From NCBI GenBank assembly GCA_017859745.1, contig JAFMML010000014.1:1-53577 (forward strand): 53,577 nt of DNA, given 5' to 3'. The DNA comes from Planctomycetota bacterium. Its GTDB lineage: Bacteria > Planctomycetota > Phycisphaerae > Phycisphaerales > SM1A02. The translations under genes were made by a program, and so were the position numbers. Shown here one piece after another: positions 3,572 to 37,167 of the stretch. Positions within the stretch are counted from its first letter, which is position 1; every line of letters starts with the position of its first letter. Below the pieces are notes generated by a model, which was not told the DNA's origin, ran no database searches, and saw only the letters and a list, made by a program, of their open reading frames with translations.

Positions 3572-3577
3572 TACGAT
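3572..3577 (+). promoter_or_regulatory. -10-like TACGAT just upstream of the exchanger start
   Basis: TACGAT ends 9 nt before the proposed TTG start at 3587. No Shine-Dalgarno sequence is present. The spacing would place transcription start at or next to the start codon. Confidence 0.4.
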
Positions 3578-3586
3578 GCGGCTCCC

Positions 3587-4561
3587 TTGTGGCTCCCGCT
3601 GCTGCTTCTGACCCTCTCGCTGGTGCTGCTGACCGTCGGTGCCGAGGTCCTGGTGCGCGGTTCGAGCGCCCTCGCGCTGCGGGCCGGGGTCTCGGCGTTC
3701 TTCGTCGGCATGACCGTGGTGGGGTTCGGAACAAGCACCCCGGAACTCGCCACCAGCGTCTTCGCGGCCCTCGACGGCGCTCCGGAGATCTCGATCGGCA
3801 ACGTGGTCGGCTCGAACATCGCCAACCTGCTGCTGGTTCTCGGGGCCGTCGCCCTGCTCCGACCCGTACCGGTCATGGCGAAGTCGCTGAACGCCGAGAT
3901 CCTGCTGCTGGCCGGAGTCACCGCCCTTCCCTGGCTGGCGTTGGCGACGGGGAGCGTCATTCCCCGCTGGATGGGCATGCTGTTCGTGATCGGGCTCGTC
4001 GCGTTCATCGGGTGGAGCTACCGCGCGAGCCGCGACGAACCCGCCGCGGTGCAGGCCGAGGCTCCGACGCTTCCCGAGGGTTGGCGAGGCGGGTGGACGG
4101 TGAACATCCTGCTGACGGTCGTCGGCATCGCGATCCTCGTGGGCAGCTCGCGCCTTCTCGTGGACTCCGCGGTCGAGCTGGCGGAGCTGTGGAGCGTTCC
4201 GCCGCTCGTGATCGGCCTGACCGTCGTCGCCTTCGGCACCTCGGCACCCGAGCTGGTCACGAGTCTCGTGGCGAGCTGGCGGGGGAAGGACGATCTCGGC
4301 CTTGGCAACCTGATCGGCTCGGGCATCTTCAACGTGCTGGGCATCCTCGGCCTCACCGCGATCGTGGTGCCGGTGCCCATCGAACCGCAGGTCTTCCGCT
4401 TCGACCTCGTGGTGGCGACGATGGCGCCCCTGCTGGTCCTGCCGTTGGCTCGCTCGGGCCGGGTGATCAGCCGCACCGAAGGCGGTCTTCTGTTCGGAGC
4501 CTTCGTGCTCTACACCGTGGCGCTCTACGCCGGCTGGCCGCAGAGCCTGCTCGGCGGCTGA
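3587..4561 (+). CDS. Na+/Ca2+ (cation/Ca2+) exchanger, CaCA/YrbG-like
   Basis: This inner-membrane antiporter exchanges calcium for sodium or protons. The 324-residue product has the two inverted alpha repeats that define the family: [17 protein letters not shown] with [19 protein letters not shown] in the first half, and [18 protein letters not shown] with [19 protein letters not shown] in the second. Each half has about five hydrophobic segments, joined by a charged cytoplasmic loop near residues 142-160. The TTG at 3587 was chosen because the first membrane segment begins directly after it and a -10-like hexamer sits 9 nt upstream. An ATG at 3443 would add 48 hydrophilic residues with no family match. 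Confidence 0.88.
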
Positions 4562-4631: not shown

Positions 4632-5861
4632 GTCCAGCACCCGGTCGATCCAGGCGCCGCCGAGGACTCGTCCCTGCCGGTAGCAGACGACCGCCTGCCC
4701 CGGCGCAAGACGCTCCTCCTCCCGTGCGAACTCGACGTCCAGTCGAAGCCCGGTCTCGGTCTCGATCGTCCGCACCCGGGCGGCGGCGGCCTCGCCGTGC
4801 AGACGCCACTGCACCTCGCACTCGATCCAGTCCGCGGGCGGATCCCCGTCGAGCCAGTTGATCTCCGTCGCCTCGGCGCCTCGGCAACGCAAGGCGGCCT
4901 TCGGCCCGACGACGACTTCGTTGCGGGCCGCGTTCTTCGAGAGCACGTAGAGCGGCACCGTCGCGGCGACCCCGAGACCACGCCGCTGCCCCACGGTGAA
5001 GTGCTGGTGGCCTCGATGCTCGCCGATCGTGCGGCCGGCCTCGTCGACGAGTGCTCCCGGCCGAATCGATCCCGGCGCCCGCCGTTCGAGCAGGCCCGCG
5101 TAGTCCTGATCGGGCACGAAGCAGATCTCCTGCGAATCCGGCTTGTCGAACACCGGCAGGCCGAGGCGCGATGCCAGCTCGCGCACCGCCGGCTTCTCGA
5201 GATCGCCAAGCGGGAAGATCGTGCGGGCGAGGCGATCGGGACGGATCCCGAACAGCGCGTAGGTCTGGTCCTTTGCGAGATCGGCGCCGCGATGCAGTTC
5301 GGCGCCGGCTTCGCCCCGACGGACGACCGCGTAGTGCCCGCTGGCCACATGGGTCGCGCCGAGCGTCTCGGCATGCTCGTGCAGGCGACCGAACTTCAGC
5401 CAGTCGTTGCAACGCACGCAGGGGTTGGGCGTGCGTCCGGCCTGGTACTCGGCGACGAACTGGTCGATGATCCGCCCGAACTCCCGTCGAAAGTTCATCA
5501 CGTAGAGGGGAATGCCGAGCGTGGCCGCGACCACTCGGGCATCGGCGGCGTCGTTGACCGAGCAGCAGCCCTGCTTCCGCCGGCCTCCGGTCGCACACAT
5601 GCCGTCGTCGGGCACAAGGCCCTCGGCCTCCCCCGCCTCGCCGAGCCGCATGAAGCAGCCGATCACCTCGTGGCCCGCCTGCCGAAGCAGGGCGGCGGCC
5701 ACCGAACTGTCGACCCCACCGCTCATGGCCACCAGCACCCGGGTCGGCGGCACGCTTGCGGCAGCCAGCGTCTCCGCCGTCGCCGCCACGGGAGCGGGCT
5801 CACCCACGCCCCCCCTTGCGGGCTCTCTCGCGGCCCCATGACGTCGTGAGGATCCGGCCAT
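4620..5861 (-). CDS. mnmA: tRNA-specific 2-thiouridylase MnmA
   Basis: MnmA thiolates U34 of tRNA-Lys, tRNA-Glu and tRNA-Gln. The 413-residue product carries the PP-loop AMSGGVDSSVAAALL (about 45-59), the conserved NPCVRCNDWLKFG segment with the first catalytic cysteine, GHYAVVRR, KDQTYALFGI, the second cysteine in QEICFVPDQDY, and HFTVGQRRGLGV before the C-terminal beta-barrel. About 38 residues precede the PP-loop strand, more than usual. The ATG at 5861 is nevertheless supported by a TAGACT hexamer ending 6 nt upstream. The gene is divergent from the RNase HII-like gene, with 54 bp between the starts. Confidence 0.95.
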   Translation of the reverse strand: MAGSSRRHGAAREPARGGVGEPAPVAATAETLAAASVPPTRVLVAMSGGVDSSVAAALLRQAGHEVIGCFMRLGEAGEAEGLVPDDGMCATGGRRKQGCCSVNDAADARVVAATLGIPLYVMNFRREFGRIIDQFVAEYQAGRTPNPCVRCNDWLKFGRLHEHAETLGATHVASGHYAVVRRGEAGAELHRGADLAKDQTYALFGIRPDRLARTIFPLGDLEKPAVRELASRLGLPVFDKPDSQEICFVPDQDYAGLLERRAPGSIRPGALVDEAGRTIGEHRGHQHFTVGQRRGLGVAATVPLYVLSKNAARNEVVVGPKAALRCRGAEATEINWLDGDPPADWIECEVQWRLHGEAAAARVRTIETETGLRLDVEFAREEERLAPGQAVVCYRQGRVLGGAWIDRVLDAPV

Positions 5862-5867
5862 CGCCCG

Positions 5868-5873
5868 AGTCTA
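5868..5873 (-). promoter_or_regulatory. -10-like TAGACT for mnmA (leaderless)
   Basis: On the minus strand TAGACT is followed by six bases and then the mnmA ATG, so +1 would fall on or next to the A of the start codon. Confidence 0.5.
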
Positions 5874-5903
5874 CGGCGTGGGTCGCGCACCGGAACCCTC
5901 GGC

Positions 5904-5909
5904 TACCTT
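5904..5909 (+). promoter_or_regulatory. -10-like TACCTT for the RNase HII-like gene (leaderless)
   Basis: TACCTT is followed by six G residues and then the GTG start at 5916. Together with the mnmA element it forms a 54-bp back-to-back promoter. Confidence 0.45.
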
Positions 5910-5915
5910 GGGGGG

Positions 5916-6896
5916 GTGCTGATCTACGCGGGCATCGACGAAGCCGGCTACGGCCCCATGCTCGGGCCGCTCGCCGCGGCGGCGACGGTCTTCCGGATCT
6001 CGGACGCCGACCCCGAGGAGGGACCTCCCCAACTGTGGTCGCGCCTCGAGAAGGTCGTCGCCCGCTCGCCCGCGGATCGACGCAAGCGTCTCGCCATCGC
6101 GGACAGCAAGCGTCTGAAGGGTGCTCGCGACGGGCGTGCCCATCCCCTGCGACATCTCGAGCGGGGCGTCCTCTGCATGCTCGCCGCCGCCGACGATCGG
6201 GACATCGCCGAGTCGGACGGGGAGGCGTTCGAGCGACTCGGCATCGATCTCGCCCGACTCGAGACCCGCCCCTGGTACCGCGACCCGACGCCGCTTCCCC
6301 AGGGGGCGACCCGCGATCGCCTCGCGATCGACGCGGCACGCCTGAAGAGGGAACTGGACGCCGCCGGCATCGAGATCGTCGGGATGTTCGCCGAAGCGGT
6401 GGACGAGGAGGCCTTCAACCGCCTCTGCCGCAGTGCCGGCAAGGCCCACGTCAACTTCCACGCGGCCATGCGTCTCGTCGACCGGATCTGGACCGACCAC
6501 GGCACCGAGACGCCGCGGGTGATCGTCGATCGCCACGGGGGACGCAGCGACTACGTCGAGCCGCTGATGCGAAGCTTCCCCGACGCCGAACTCGAGGAGA
6601 TCGGCCGGACCGATCGGATCAGTCGGTATCGCCTTCGGCGGTCGGGCGGCGAGATCGTGCTGAGCTTCGAGGCCGAGAGCGAGGACCGGCACCTTCCGAC
6701 CGCTCTGGCCTCGATGACCGCGAAGCTGGTCCGGGAGTGGTCGATGGCCCGCTTCAACCGCCACTTCGCCACGATCGCCCCCGAGGTGAAGCCGACGGCC
6801 GGCTACGTCGCGGACGCCCGGCGGTGGCTCGAGGAGATCGCCCCTGAGTTCCAGCGACGCGGGGTCCGGCGGAGCGACCTCGTTCGGATCGCCTGA
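5916..6896 (+). CDS. RNase HII-like protein with a GYG motif
   Basis: The 326-residue product begins IYAGIDEAGYGPMLGPL, which aligns with the RNase HII signature GIDEAGRGPLAGP; D8 and E9 match the catalytic pair. It continues with IADSKRLKGARDG (compare DSKKLS of RNase HII), VIVDRHGGR with a further acidic residue, and ALASMTAKLVREWSMARFN (compare the AASIxAKVxRD helix). The usual GRG triad that reads the RNA-DNA junction is GYG, and the protein is about 100 residues longer than RNase HII. It therefore looks like a divergent paralogue with RNase H fold and unknown substrate. It starts with GTG. Confidence 0.75.
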   Translation: MLIYAGIDEAGYGPMLGPLAAAATVFRISDADPEEGPPQLWSRLEKVVARSPADRRKRLAIADSKRLKGARDGRAHPLRHLERGVLCMLAAADDRDIAESDGEAFERLGIDLARLETRPWYRDPTPLPQGATRDRLAIDAARLKRELDAAGIEIVGMFAEAVDEEAFNRLCRSAGKAHVNFHAAMRLVDRIWTDHGTETPRVIVDRHGGRSDYVEPLMRSFPDAELEEIGRTDRISRYRLRRSGGEIVLSFEAESEDRHLPTALASMTAKLVREWSMARFNRHFATIAPEVKPTAGYVADARRWLEEIAPEFQRRGVRRSDLVRIA

Positions 6897-9759: not shown

Positions 9760-9765
9760 TAAGAT
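9760..9765 (+). promoter_or_regulatory. -10-like TAAGAT for the phosphatase gene (leaderless)
   Basis: TAAGAT is followed by eight bases and the ATG at 9774. There is no Shine-Dalgarno sequence. Confidence 0.5.
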
Positions 9766-9773
9766 CCCCTGCG

Positions 9774-11399
9774 ATGTCCGACCCCCCGCTCGTCGACGCC
9801 GAGGAGATCCCCGAGGAACTTCGGGATCATGGAGACCATCGGGAGTATCGCGGCGAGTTCGAACTCGATCTGGTCCGGTGGTTCCGGCGACGGTTCGCGT
9901 GGATGTGCGGGGTCTACGCGGTGCTGCAGACCTTCATCTTCGCCTCGCTGCTGGCGCTGGCGCTCTCTGGCCTTCCTGCGGAGACGGATGCCCCCACCGC
10001 ATCCGTCTCCGTCGGCGACGGCGTGACCCTCGCCCTCGGCGAGCTTGCGACCTCTCCCGACGAGGTTCCCGCAGCTTCGGATTCGCCTTCGGACTGGCGC
10101 ATCGGCACCCTCGTCGACGCGATCACCGCGGCGCTGGGCCTCGTCGCGATCGCGATCTTCGCCCTGAAGATCCGACCCCGCATCGACAACCGGATCGGGG
10201 CGCTGTCCGCCGCGACCCGACTGCTCCTGCTGCTGGGCGCCTTGATCGTGGCCGGCGAGTTCGTGAAGCGAATCGTGGCGCCGGAGATGGTGGTCTCGCC
10301 GCTCGCGTCGGTGATGCTGCTGCACTTCTCCGCGTGCCTGTTCCTGCCGTGGACTCCACGGGAGTCGGTTCGCCCGATCCTCCCGCTGCTGGTGGCCTGG
10401 GCGGGGTACCGCCTGATCGTCGGAATCGTCGCGCTGCTGGCGTCTTCCGGCCGGTTCGAATCGCTCGTGGTCACCGTCGTCGAGGTCGTGGCGAGCCCGA
10501 TGATCCTGCTTCCCGGCATGGGCCTCTGCTGGTGGCGCCTGCGGCGATACCGACGCCGCTTCGGCAGGGAGTTCACGGGTCGAAAGCTGCGGGCCCTTCG
10601 GCGGGAGATCAAGCAGGCCCGCACCATCCACGACAGTCTGTTTCCAGCCACCTTCGAAGCGGCCGACCCGATTCGCTTCGACTACGCCTACGCCCCCGCG
10701 AGCGATCTCGGCGGAGACTTCCTCCACGTCCACCGCCACGTGGACGGCGCCGTGACCATGGTGCTGCTCGACGTCACCGGACACGGCCTCTCCGCGGCGA
10801 TGACCGTGAACCGGCTCGTCGGCGAGATCGAGCGTCTGCACGCCGAGCGACCCGACACCGGTCCCGGAGAACTGCTTGCGGGCCTCAACCGCTACGTCCA
10901 TCTGACCCTCGCCCGGCACTCGCTGCTCGCCACCGCGGCCGCCGTGCTCGTCGATCCCGCACGCGGCGCCGTCCGCATCGCCAACGCCGGCCACCCGCCG
11001 GTGCTGCGGCGAAGGCGCAACGGCGTGCTGGACCACTTCGGAGCGACCGAGCCGCTGCTCGGGGCCCTGCCGTCCGAGGAGTTCGGCACCTTGGAGCACG
11101 AGTTCGAACTCGCGCCCGGCGAGACCCTGTTCGCATACACCGACGGTGCGTTCGAGGCTCGCGATCGCACCGGGCGCGAACTCGGGCTCGACGGCTTCGC
11201 ACGACTCTGCGGCGGCCAACCGGCCCCTTCCCGATGGCCGAGCCACCTGCTGCGGATCGTCGAGGGCTTCGAGGGACCGATCCGCGGCGACGACGTGCTG
11301 GTCGCGACCCTCGCCTGGACCGGCGTCGGCGTCGACCGACCGAACCCCGCGCCCCCGCGCGGCGGCACCCGAACCTTCGAGGAGGAGACCATCGCATGA
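9774..11399 (+). CDS. Membrane-bound SpoIIE/RsbU-type PP2C phosphatase
   Basis: Residues 40-260 form about six membrane segments separated by short charged loops. A juxtamembrane helix REIKQARTIHDSLFP leads into the SpoIIE-type Ser/Thr phosphatase domain (about 290-520). Metal-site motifs are visible as SDLGGDFLHV, VLLDVTGHGLSAAMT, NAGHPPVL and YTDGAFEARD. Such proteins dephosphorylate anti-anti-sigma factors in partner-switching pathways; no STAS or kinase partner gene is nearby. The membrane part has no recognisable sensor domain. The stop overlaps the ribD start (ATGA), so the two genes are translationally coupled although functionally unrelated. The start is supported by a -10-like hexamer 8 nt upstream. 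Confidence 0.9.
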   Translation: MSDPPLVDAEEIPEELRDHGDHREYRGEFELDLVRWFRRRFAWMCGVYAVLQTFIFASLLALALSGLPAETDAPTASVSVGDGVTLALGELATSPDEVPAASDSPSDWRIGTLVDAITAALGLVAIAIFALKIRPRIDNRIGALSAATRLLLLLGALIVAGEFVKRIVAPEMVVSPLASVMLLHFSACLFLPWTPRESVRPILPLLVAWAGYRLIVGIVALLASSGRFESLVVTVVEVVASPMILLPGMGLCWWRLRRYRRRFGREFTGRKLRALRREIKQARTIHDSLFPATFEAADPIRFDYAYAPASDLGGDFLHVHRHVDGAVTMVLLDVTGHGLSAAMTVNRLVGEIERLHAERPDTGPGELLAGLNRYVHLTLARHSLLATAAAVLVDPARGAVRIANAGHPPVLRRRRNGVLDHFGATEPLLGALPSEEFGTLEHEFELAPGETLFAYTDGAFEARDRTGRELGLDGFARLCGGQPAPSRWPSHLLRIVEGFEGPIRGDDVLVATLAWTGVGVDRPNPAPPRGGTRTFEEETIA

Positions 11400-25920: not shown

Positions 25921-26928
25921 CTACGCCCGGCCGCTCCACCCGCGCAGGAACCGCCAGACGGTGAGCGCGGCGAGCCTCGCGGTGCGACCGTCTCCATCGT
26001 GCGGCGGCGAAAGCTCCACGACGTCGAGCGACGCGACTCTCGGATCGCCACCAAGCCGTTCCGCGGCGGCGAGCCAGGACTCGACCGGCAATCCCGCCGG
26101 CGAGGGCGCGCTCACCCCGGGCGCCGCACTCGCCGCCACCGCGTCGAGATCGAGCGAGGCCATGATGGAGGCGTGACGTTCGTCGGACGAGTCCCGCCAC
26201 GGTGGCAGCGCCGCCAGCGGATCCGGCCGGCCGGCGGCGTCGCGGGGCAGTTCGTCGATGAAGACGGCGGTCGCGTCCTGGGACCGCATCCACGCGAGAT
26301 GCTCCGCGGACACCGCGGACGGCTGCAGCCCCGCCACCGCGTATCCGCAACAGGACTTCGACGGATGCTCGAGCGCCTGTCGAAACGGCGAGCCGCTGTG
26401 ACCGCGCAGCACGCCGTCGATCTCGCGTAGCGGGCGCACGTCGGGATGCGCATCGATGTTCACGCTGAACACCTCCCGCCCGGCCCCCGCATGGCCAAGC
26501 AGCATGCCGTAGGCGGTCTCGTGCCCGCCGCCGAGCACCACCACGGTTCGGCCCGCCGCGGCATGCGGAGCCAGCGCCGCCCCCAGTGCCGCCTGATCCC
26601 GCTCGAGATCGCCGGACACCTCGAGGTCGCCCAGATCGCAGATCCTTCCAAGCAACGCCGCCATTTCGGGAAGACGCGGATCCGGCATCATCCGCCACAA
26701 GGCGTTCCGAATCGCGGTGGGACCGTCCGCGGCGCCGACGCGACCTCCGTTTCGACGAACCCCTTCGTCGCAGGGAAATCCCGCGATCACCAGAGTGGTC
26801 GACGCGTCGACTTCGTTCCCGAACAGATCGCCGAGGCGCCGCTCCCCCGGCTTGGCCGGTGGCAACGGGCAGTCCGGCCGGCGGAACCGGGCACGATCTC
26901 CCAGAGGATGTGCCGAAGCGTCGTTCAT
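25921..26928 (-). CDS. Ureohydrolase family protein, formimidoylglutamase-like
   Basis: The 335-residue cytoplasmic protein belongs to the arginase/agmatinase/HutG fold. Manganese ligands are visible in VVLGGGHETAYG (about 131-142), NIDAHPDVRP (about 155) and SLDLDAVAAS (about 240). PCDEGVRRNGGRVGAADGPTAIR is the HutG-type N-terminal loop. HutG hydrolyses N-formimidoyl-glutamate to glutamate in histidine degradation, but no other hut genes are nearby. The start at 26928 (MNDASAHPLG) is supported by a TATGCT hexamer ending 7 nt upstream, which argues for a leaderless message. It is divergent from the HD-GYP gene. Confidence 0.85.
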   Translation of the reverse strand: MNDASAHPLGDRARFRRPDCPLPPAKPGERRLGDLFGNEVDASTTLVIAGFPCDEGVRRNGGRVGAADGPTAIRNALWRMMPDPRLPEMAALLGRICDLGDLEVSGDLERDQAALGAALAPHAAAGRTVVVLGGGHETAYGMLLGHAGAGREVFSVNIDAHPDVRPLREIDGVLRGHSGSPFRQALEHPSKSCCGYAVAGLQPSAVSAEHLAWMRSQDATAVFIDELPRDAAGRPDPLAALPPWRDSSDERHASIMASLDLDAVAASAAPGVSAPSPAGLPVESWLAAAERLGGDPRVASLDVVELSPPHDGDGRTARLAALTVWRFLRGWSGRA

Positions 26929-26935
26929 GCCTCGC

Positions 26936-26941
26936 AGCATA
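26936..26941 (-). promoter_or_regulatory. -10-like TATGCT for the ureohydrolase gene (leaderless)
   Basis: TATGCT is followed by seven bases and the ATG at 26928. Confidence 0.5.
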
Positions 26942-26959
26942 GATCCGGCGACCCGCCGG

Positions 26960-26965
26960 TAGCAT
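26960..26965 (+). promoter_or_regulatory. -10-like TAGCAT for the HD-GYP gene (leaderless)
   Basis: TAGCAT is followed by seven bases and the ATG at 26973. It is back to back with the ureohydrolase element, 18 bp away. Confidence 0.5.
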
Positions 26966-26972
26966 CCTCGCC

Positions 26973-28634
26973 ATGCCTGCGCCCGGTCCCCGCCCTCTTG
27001 CCACGGTCCTGCTCGTCGACGACCAGGCGATGATCGGCGAGGCGGTGCGGCGGATGCTTGCCGACGACGACCGCATCGTCCTTCACGTCCGCCTCGAGGG
27101 TGCCGCCGCGCTCGAGACGGCACGACGTGTTCGGCCGACGGTCATCCTGCAGGATCTCGTGATGCCCGACGCGGACGGTCTCGATCTGCTCGAGGCCTAC
27201 CGCGCCGACGAGGCCCTCGCCGACGTGCCGGTGGTGGTGCTGAGCGCCCGGGAGGAACCCGCCACCAAGGCGGAGGCGTTCGCCCGCGGTGCGAGCGACT
27301 ATCTCGTGAAGCTTCCCGATCCCGTCGAGTTGAAGGCTCGACTGCACCATCACACCGCCGGCTTCGTCGCCGAACGGGAGCGCCGCAGCGCGTTCGTCGA
27401 GCTCGAGGCCATGGCCGGCGAGGTGCGCGAGAAGAACCGCCGCCTCGACGAGGCCAACCGGCGCCTCGCGGAGATGAACGCGGACCTCGCCGACGACGTG
27501 CGCGAGGGGCAGGCGCGGCTGGACGCGATCGCCGCGACCGGCGCCGAACTCGCCGCGATCCAGGACCTCGACCTGCTGCTCGAGCGCATCCTCGGCGACG
27601 CCGGGCGATTCGCCCGTGCCGCGGCGGGGGCGATCCTCGTCCGCGATGGCGACACCCTCGCCCTGGAGTACCGTCTCGACGAGGGGATTGCCCGCCACGA
27701 ACGGCGTCACGATCCGCTGCCGATCGCCCTCGAAGGCGTCGCCGGCCGCGCGGCGCTCACCGGCGAGGTCGTGCATCTCGCCGCCAACGGCGATCCGCAG
27801 CCGGGACGAGTCGGCGGCCACCTCATCGAAGGCTTCGTCGACTCGTCCTTCGGCTGCGTGCTGGCCCAACCGCTGCGCACCGCCACCGGCGAGGTGCTCG
27901 GAGTGCTGCTGCTCGCCGACGCCGCGGAGGGATTCCCCGAGGAGGATCGTCGACTGCTCGCCCACTTCGCGAGTCTTGCGACCGTCGCCCTCGAACGCGC
28001 ATCGCTGGTCCGTTCGATGATCCTCCGCATGATCGGCATGGCCGAATTGCGCGATCCGACCGAGACCGGCGCCCATGTCCAGCGGGTGGCGGGCTATTCG
28101 ATCGCGATCTTCACCGAGTGGGCACGACGACACGGGATGCCGTCGGCCGAGACCGAACGGCAGCGCGACCGCCTGCGGATCGCGGCGATGCTGCACGACG
28201 TCGGCAAGGTCGGCATCCCCGACGCGATCCTCAAGAAGCCCGGCCGCCTCGACGAGGCGGAGTACGCCGAGATGCAGACCCACACCCGCATCGGCGCCGA
28301 CCTGTTCACCGGCCTCCGCACCGACTTCGACGAGGCCGCACGCGAGGTCGCGCTGCGGCACCACGAGCGTTGGGACGGCGACGGCTATCCCGGCGCCGGA
28401 GATCCTCCACGGGGACTTGGCGGCGAGTCCATCCCCCTCTTCGCCCGCATCGTCGGCCTCGCCGACGTCTTCGACGCGCTGTCCTCCAAGCGCAGCTACA
28501 AGGAGTCGTGGCCGGAGTCGAAGGTCCTCGAAGTCGTTCGCGAGGAATCCGGCCGTCACTTCGATCCGGAACTCGTCGAGATCCTGCTCGATCGAATCGA
28601 CGACCTGCGGGCGGTCCGGAACCGCTTCGTCTGA
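26973..28634 (+). CDS. Response regulator REC-GAF-HD-GYP (c-di-GMP phosphodiesterase)
   Basis: The 553-residue protein has a receiver domain (about 8-125, LLVDDQAMIGE, phospho-acceptor D61 in LQDLVMPDADG, Lys in YLVKLPDP) and a coiled coil (about 130-185). A GAF domain (about 190-345) and a complete HD-GYP domain (about 350-545) follow. The HD-GYP part shows ETGAHVQRVAGYS, LHDVGKVGIPDAILKKPG, HTRIGADLF, RHHERWDGDGYPGAG and GLADVFDALSSKRSYK, so metal and GYP residues are intact. Such proteins degrade c-di-GMP upon phosphorylation. No kinase lies beside it; the divergent neighbour is a ureohydrolase. Confidence 0.93.
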   Translation: MPAPGPRPLATVLLVDDQAMIGEAVRRMLADDDRIVLHVRLEGAAALETARRVRPTVILQDLVMPDADGLDLLEAYRADEALADVPVVVLSAREEPATKAEAFARGASDYLVKLPDPVELKARLHHHTAGFVAERERRSAFVELEAMAGEVREKNRRLDEANRRLAEMNADLADDVREGQARLDAIAATGAELAAIQDLDLLLERILGDAGRFARAAAGAILVRDGDTLALEYRLDEGIARHERRHDPLPIALEGVAGRAALTGEVVHLAANGDPQPGRVGGHLIEGFVDSSFGCVLAQPLRTATGEVLGVLLLADAAEGFPEEDRRLLAHFASLATVALERASLVRSMILRMIGMAELRDPTETGAHVQRVAGYSIAIFTEWARRHGMPSAETERQRDRLRIAAMLHDVGKVGIPDAILKKPGRLDEAEYAEMQTHTRIGADLFTGLRTDFDEAAREVALRHHERWDGDGYPGAGDPPRGLGGESIPLFARIVGLADVFDALSSKRSYKESWPESKVLEVVREESGRHFDPELVEILLDRIDDLRAVRNRFV

Positions 28635-32649: not shown

Positions 32650-36393
<3,744 letters not shown>

Positions 36394-37167
36394 GTACGGG
36401 GAGTCTACGAGCGCCTTGAACACCCTTCAACCGTTCATCCGGATGGACGGATGAATGCGGACCGCTGACCGGGCAACCCCTCGATCCGACACGGTTCAGA
36501 GCGCCGAATCCGGACGGTTATGCGACCCAGCGCCGGATTCGCCCGGCGGCCCGGCGGCAACCGGCCGCGGACGTCGACGCGATGTCGATCGCGTTGGGGG
36601 GGCGCCGACTGGGGATACCCACCAACGTCCCACTCCGAATGGCGAGGAGCCTTGTACACGGTTGCCGTCGATGCCCGCCGGCGACCCAGAAGATCGATGG
36701 GGACCCGCCTTCCACTGCAGAGACACCGTGCCTCGACTCCCAAACGGGATCCGCCGCGCCGGTCGGAGAACTTCGGAGGCTCCAACCGGGATCCGCTCGC
36801 CCACGAGATTGCAACGAGCTGAAGTTGTCGCCGTACCCTTGTGGGGTCCGAGCCCTCTGGGCCGAGCGCCGCCTCGCCGCGGGGCGATCGCCGGCCCTCG
36901 ACAGCGAGGCCTCCGTCGCCCGTGGTCGATGCCGCCATCCGGCCACATCCCGAACCTCGCCGTCTCCGACCCACTCCCCCGGCATCCACCATCTCCGCCC
37001 GCTCCCAACCGCGAGTGCCACCGCCTGTGACCCATCCACCCTCGACCTTCGGCCCGCAATCGACATTCGCCCCGCAGCGGCCGCACTCGCCCTCCCGCGG
37101 CTCGGACCCGTCCACCACCGCCCCGGCACCGACCGGCGGTGGTCGACACCGATGCGGCTCGCCCACC
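36394..37167. other. Intergenic region between metH and the S41 protease
   Basis: These 774 bases separate divergent genes. They hold the metH -10 element and, on the + strand, TACCCT at 36834-36839 with a GTG at 36841 in frame with the protease. The intervening frame is Pro/Ser/Arg-rich with no domain and is more likely a leader than a protein extension. No RNA gene or repeat was recognised. Confidence 0.55.
36402..36407 (-). promoter_or_regulatory. -10-like TAGACT for metH (leaderless)
   Basis: TAGACT is followed by eight bases and the metH ATG at 36393. Confidence 0.5.

Follow-up and report, generated by a model that had tools for sequence, protein, structure and literature searches.

TAnnnT hexamers close to start codons as candidate -10-only promoters of leaderless genes in a Phycisphaerales genome

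The stretch of DNA analysed here (the window) comprises 53,577 nucleotides and is one whole contig (C6) of a 3.24-Mb draft genome from the Phycisphaerales (Planctomycetota), which consists of 147 contigs and has a GC content of about 69%. A preliminary description of the window claimed that at least seven of its genes, on both strands, carry a TAnnnT hexamer 6 to 9 nt before the start codon, and that two short divergent intervals hold two such elements apiece. Each of the seven hexamers named there is found at its claimed spacing, and both intervals are borne out:

3572..3577, plus strand: TACGAT, predicted -10 of a Na/Ca-exchanger family gene, 9 nt before the TTG at 3587
5862..5915 (54 bp), mnmA/RNase HII-like interval: a back-to-back pair of predicted -10-only promoters with 30 bp between the hexamers
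5868..5873, minus strand: TAGACT, predicted -10 of mnmA, 6 nt before the ATG at 5861
5904..5909, plus strand: TACCTT, predicted -10 of an RNase HII-like gene, 6 nt before the GTG at 5916
9760..9765, plus strand: TAAGAT, predicted -10 of a SpoIIE-phosphatase gene, 8 nt before the ATG at 9774
26929..26972 (44 bp), ureohydrolase/HD-GYP interval: a back-to-back pair of predicted -10-only promoters with 18 bp between the hexamers
26936..26941, minus strand: TATGCT, predicted -10 of a ureohydrolase gene, 7 nt before the ATG at 26928
26960..26965, plus strand: TAGCAT, predicted -10 of an HD-GYP gene, 7 nt before the ATG at 26973
36402..36407, minus strand: TAGACT, predicted -10 of metH, 8 nt before the ATG at 36393

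Pfam supports the tRNA methyl transferase (mnmA), RNase HII, SpoIIE and Na/Ca exchanger domains; the names ureohydrolase, HD-GYP and metH are taken from the preliminary description. The RNase HII-like protein (5916-6896) matches Pfam RNase_HII weakly (E 3.9e-8, best stretch residues 5-27) and, judging from its sequence, belongs to a divergent RNase HII family. Its relatives are found in 105 of 119 genomes drawn across the phylum.

Start codons were picked by a gene finder that uses coding statistics and the start codon only and makes no use of the letters upstream. Its seed requires GC3 > GC1 > GC2, a rule that was switched off where GC was 56% or lower. From the window's own genome (labelled G000; other G numbers denote further genomes and L numbers loci) a sample of 585,263 bases, the window included, was run through the finder and gave 426 genes. 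We write d for the number of nucleotides that separate the hexamer from the start codon. A scan of the window over all near-equal candidate starts returned exactly the seven sites listed above and no eighth. Seven of 35 genes corresponds to a P of about 2e-5 at the mean control rate (2.5% of genes), and of 4e-4 at the highest control rate (controls ranged from 3 to 16 of 406 genes). For two of the seven genes the coding-only finder chose a start other than the hexamer-bearing one, namely 5789 for mnmA and 3443 for the exchanger.

The test named in the preliminary description, a scan for TAnnnT at -6 to -9 against controls, gave a sharp peak in the G000 sample. With coding-only starts for 322 genes, the hexamer occurs at d=6, 7, 8 and 9 in 20, 8, 3 and 9 cases, at d=0-5 in none, and at other positions in 0-4 cases each. 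Among genes in a promoter context (contig-edge and operon-internal genes removed), 40 of 309 carry it, against a mean of 4.0 over nine control windows, and of the 22 with TA at -12, 20 have the T that makes it a full TAnnnT. When near-equal start candidates are allowed, the count at d=6-9 is 64 of 406 genes, while seven other windows on the same 406 genes give 3, 12, 7, 11, 16, 12 and 10. The signal is specific to TAnnnT: seven permuted motifs have no comparable peak, the nearest being TnnnAT with 47 sites against 21-45 elsewhere. Hexamer genes also start with ATG more often than other genes do (56/64 against 250/342; P 0.017).

Could this peak have arisen by chance, or from the way starts are called in a high-GC genome? 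The motif has few letters and was picked once the sequence had been inspected, and in-frame TAA or TAG triplets can bias start calls. An artefact of stop codons was rejected, since the non-stop TAC and TAT versions of the hexamer peak as well as the TAA and TAG versions do. The signal also persists when gene calls are left aside: the whole G000 genome contains 184 copies of TAnnnT-N6-ATG and 21 of TAnnnT-N15-ATG, the single control spacing, which keeps the same codon register. The lack of genome-wide enrichment that the preliminary description named as a refuting outcome was therefore not observed. A reversed-pattern control, which in G000 gives 80 (N6) and 71 (N15), was set aside on account of its different codon content. 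With the conservation of the hexamer across genera, described below, we regard chance or artefact as barely credible.

The distribution of the 64 sites follows gene context. Hexamers precede 39 of 136 divergent genes and only 3 of 83 genes with gaps below 25 bp, which we treat as operon-internal (P 1e-6). The remaining classes are 15/137 for same-strand gaps of at least 60 bp, 6/36 for gaps of 25-59 bp and 1/14 at contig edges. The hexamers therefore occur at the first genes of transcription units and hardly within operons. They account for 64 of the 406 genes and, within the divergent class, for 39 of 136, so that a large share of the promoters in this genome look different.

As the preliminary description had it, Shine-Dalgarno (SD) sequences are missing at hexamer genes and commoner inside operons. 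SD-like sequences were found at none of the 64 hexamer genes and at 79 of the 342 others, a count that is partly mechanical because the hexamer occupies the SD position; genes with gaps below 25 bp have them in 25 of 83 cases, with a control of 5. Of 61 family genomes, 45 contain the exact anti-SD pattern of 16S, both same-genus relatives among them; in G000 it had no match.

The lack of SD-like sequences would also suit a different explanation, in which TAnnnT is a translation signal at the RNA level (A/U-rich, S1-binding or structure-breaking) within a longer leader. One planctomycete has been included in an earlier study, which suggested leaderless and/or S1-dependent initiation and, in the part drawn on here, leaves both readings open for it (PMC5397173). 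We consider an RNA signal unlikely. A translation signal would be needed by operon-internal genes too, so the near-absence of the hexamer there (3/83) speaks against it. Moreover, the pattern is one of T1, A2 and T6 rather than a general A/T preference, and at 0-5 nt the signal is zero.

In a classical two-part sigma-70 promoter the -35 element (TTGaca) lies 16-19 bp before the -10. Searches for its first letters, TTG, at spacers of 16, 17, 18 and 19 found 1, 1, 0 and 1 of the 64 G000 sites and 2, 1, 3 and 2 of 109 pooled mnmA/RNase HII-like sites; nor did looking for it as TTGA, TTG.C and TTGAC bring out a -35 at the 64 G000 sites. The classical form was rejected on these counts, no -35 being visible at 16-19 bp. 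An extended -10 carries TGn ahead of the hexamer. At our sites G at -2 from the hexamer is raised, with a frequency of 0.56 (109 pooled sites) and 0.45 (G000), and T at -3 has one of 0.18 and 0.16, which hints at an extended -10 minus its T.

In the G000 sample the gaps of divergent pairs with an element on both sides are 41, 44, 54, 78, 152 and 242 bp, as against 56-293 bp for pairs with one element (n=21) and 101-586 bp for pairs with none (n=27).

Conservation of the hexamer was followed at the mnmA/RNase HII-like pair. The RNase HII-like gene is carried by 97 of 101 same-family genomes. A search with its protein gave 190 relatives in named genomes; 80 of these were retained, and almost all come from Phycisphaerales, Phycisphaerae or Planctomycetota. 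We collected 110 loci and obtained a start in 108 (L046 and L085 gave none), leaving 84 distinct ones. In these the start codon lies 3-7 codons, mostly five, ahead of an invariant GIDEAGYGP, and this motif so close to the N-terminus fixes the start. TAnnnT lies 6-9 nt before it in 70 of the 84 distinct loci. After thinning to below 60% upstream identity the hexamer is found in 58 of 65 loci and an SD-like sequence in 1 of 65. All these loci share ancestry, and the counts of conservation given here are not counts of independent events.

The remaining 14 of the 84 distinct loci have no TAnnnT. Eight of them (L006, L010, L011, L013, L015, L019, L020 and L059) share TGTCG-N25-TGGCACAAC, which ends six nt before the RNase HII-like start; L016 has a variant. 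The exact pattern TGTCG-N25-TGGCACAAC-N6-start occurs once each in G062, G067, G083 and G099 and twice in G033, and is absent from the other five genomes searched. With one or two copies per genome it resembles a single conserved site rather than a general class of promoter.

In the divergent neighbour, mnmA, a candidate start follows TAnnnT at a distance of 6-8 nt in 35 of 43 distinct loci, compared with 0-9 loci in eight shifted windows. This count repeats, at d=6-8 and with the shifted windows, the rule used for counting pairs, which prefers hexamer-bearing mnmA starts and allows d=5-10. By the pair rule, 36 of 42 distinct pairs have both elements, one has the mnmA element only and five the RNase HII-like element only; the window's own pair (L081) is wrongly counted among the five, for no other reason than that its mnmA start lies 132 nt from the motif where the script allowed 130 nt. 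Pairs with both elements have 33 to 252 bp between their start codons, and in the shortest (L038 and L047) 7 bp remain between the hexamers. A shared or overlapping -10 on the two strands, as in a symmetric bidirectional promoter, was not seen in the window or in its relatives. In five loci (L022, L026, L027, L040 and L097) a conserved stretch, TGTGGGRAATCTG, lies between the two start codons and is perhaps a regulator site.

The mnmA start deserves a closer look, since it raises the question of whether the hexamers are promoters while many true translation starts lie further downstream, behind ordinary leaders. In the window the hexamer-bearing mnmA start is 44 codons (132 nt) before the SGGVDS motif, against 18-57 nt in those relatives that have the hexamer at their start, and the coding-only finder did pick a later start. 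The RNase HII-like gene, however, has no room for such a shift, with its start mostly five codons before GIDEAGYGP, and the starts of metH and the exchanger are conserved in relatives. For metH, 10 of 12 family relatives examined have an ATG at the same codon and 9 of 12 have the hexamer before the orthologous or an adjacent ATG; in the same-genus L268, TAGACT lies 11 nt upstream. Of 12 metH loci from outside the family, 4 show the hexamer at one candidate start or another, and three of these belong to one genus. The exchanger TTG is matched at the same codon by GTG in L317 and by ATG in L318 and L319. Of these three loci only L317 has the hexamer, which L318, for example, does not carry; over 24 exchanger loci it is found at some candidate start in 10, a weak signal. 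Taken as a general explanation, downstream starts behind ordinary leaders are in our view very unlikely.

How widely is the hexamer used? We compared the N6 and N15 counts in 80 chosen genomes: 49 from the family (G000 included, mostly one per genus), 9 from other families of the order and 22 from elsewhere in the phylum. N6 exceeds N15 at P < 1e-4 in 41/49, 8/9 and 12/22 of these respectively, and the N6/N15 ratio is at least 1.5 in 37/49, 7/9 and 10/22. G000 has the highest ratio, 8.8, while the family median is 2.2 and its lowest value 1.1. Distant genomes with an excess are G127 (4.8), G154 (2.9), G118 (2.7) and G152 and G200 (both 2.6), so that leaderless expression may be scattered through the phylum; G111, G157, G103, G120, G161, G171, G209 and G217 are flat (1.0-1.1).

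Gene-based samples at d=5-9 gave 23 sites in G009 (3.5 expected) and 14 in G177 (5.7 expected). G195, from the same order, is borderline, with 9 sites at d=5-9 (3.6 expected) and 4 of 103 genes at d=6-9 (control 3.1). Samples from the low-GC genomes G157, G188, G148 and G207 had no excess, and TAnnnT tests poorly at 39-45% GC. A 200-kb sample of G156 (64% GC) likewise had none (4/106, control 4.3), while its genome-wide count has a small excess (634 against 507). Overall, the mode is frequent yet uneven across the phylum, with its greatest strength around the window's genus. The commonest spacing is 5 nt in G009 (L186-L195; 8 sites, with a further 7 at 8 nt) and in G195 (L196-L205; 5 sites), and 6-7 nt in G000. 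It may therefore be that the spacing between TAnnnT and the start differs between genera.

The reading we prefer, with a probability of roughly 0.86, is that the TAnnnT hexamers are -10-only promoters whose transcripts would begin at or next to the start codon and be leaderless. The housekeeping RNA polymerase (sigma-70 type) would use TAnnnT as its -10 element, with no recognisable -35 to accompany it. Transcription usually starts about 7 nt past the -10 hexamer. Where the hexamer ends 6 nt before the start codon, the predicted transcription start is the first base of that codon, and an mRNA beginning there is leaderless; at 7-9 nt the leader would measure at most about 3 nt. The ribosome would then bind the 5'-terminal start codon directly, while other genes in the same genome keep their SD sequences. 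The counts establish the position, the specificity, the promoter context, the lack of SD sequences and the conservation of the hexamer; promoter activity, the exact transcript end and the mode of translation are what we infer.

The mnmA/RNase HII-like (54 bp) and ureohydrolase/HD-GYP (44 bp) intervals would then each hold two such promoters back to back, and in intervals this short polymerases would probably be unable to sit on both sides simultaneously. A bolder proposal builds on this. Leaderless expression might have a so far unreported stronghold in the Phycisphaerales and some other lineages of the Planctomycetota, with -10-only promoters allowing divergent start codons as little as 33 bp apart. 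The mnmA/RNase HII-like pair might be a conserved either/or gate, where a polymerase on one leaderless promoter blocks the other and so couples tRNA thiolation to the removal of ribonucleotides from DNA. We offer this as speculation, and as it stands it is rather doubtful.

If the preferred reading is correct, leaderless expression, so far mainly a matter of Actinobacteria and Deinococcus-Thermus, would extend to an order of the Planctomycetota known largely from metagenomes. The hexamer could be used to correct start calls in these genomes, for example those of the RNase HII-like gene, mnmA and metH. How initiation is chosen could be studied well in genomes where SD and leaderless genes coexist, and at very short divergent intervals. 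Other planctomycete families, where the signal varies from high (G127) to flat (G103, G111, G157 and G161), offer a comparison for timing the origin or loss of the mode.

Among the titles and abstracts listed from the open-licence literature we found no description of leaderless promoters in Phycisphaerales, which is no proof that none exists. The architecture itself, an adjacent -10 with a leaderless transcript, is already known from mycobacteria and Deinococcus; it is the lineage for which that literature gave us no report. Zheng et al. (2011, PMC3160421) describe a TANNNT (TA-like) signal as a mark by which leaderless genes of high-GC bacteria are recognised. Ours has the same consensus and position, about 12 bp before the start as counted from the first T; both are the high-GC form, with a middle that is little informative, and in both SD and leaderless genes stand side by side. 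The signal of Zheng et al. covers Actinobacteria, Deinococcus-Thermus and others, and their main text does not include planctomycetes or Phycisphaera. In Deinococcus-Thermus reporters show that -10 boxes beside ORFs drive leaderless genes (PMC12340547). There too the -10 lies a few bp before the ORF, the mRNA is leaderless and the -35 is dispensable; it is another phylum, and what reporters established there is predicted from sequence here. Figure S7 of that article covers bacterial phyla, among which Planctomycetota may be included. Mycobacterium tuberculosis is likewise high in GC, with extensive leaderless transcription, and its start sites have been mapped (PMC3898074) where ours are predicted. 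Judged by the loci compared, the mnmA/RNase HII-like back-to-back pair is unusually conserved. Bidirectional promoters of Escherichia coli, in the portion of that work drawn on here, have a pseudo-symmetric sequence (PMC12825309); the Phycisphaerales pairs, unlike these, have separate hexamers at least 7 bp apart, and both of their transcripts are predicted to be leaderless.
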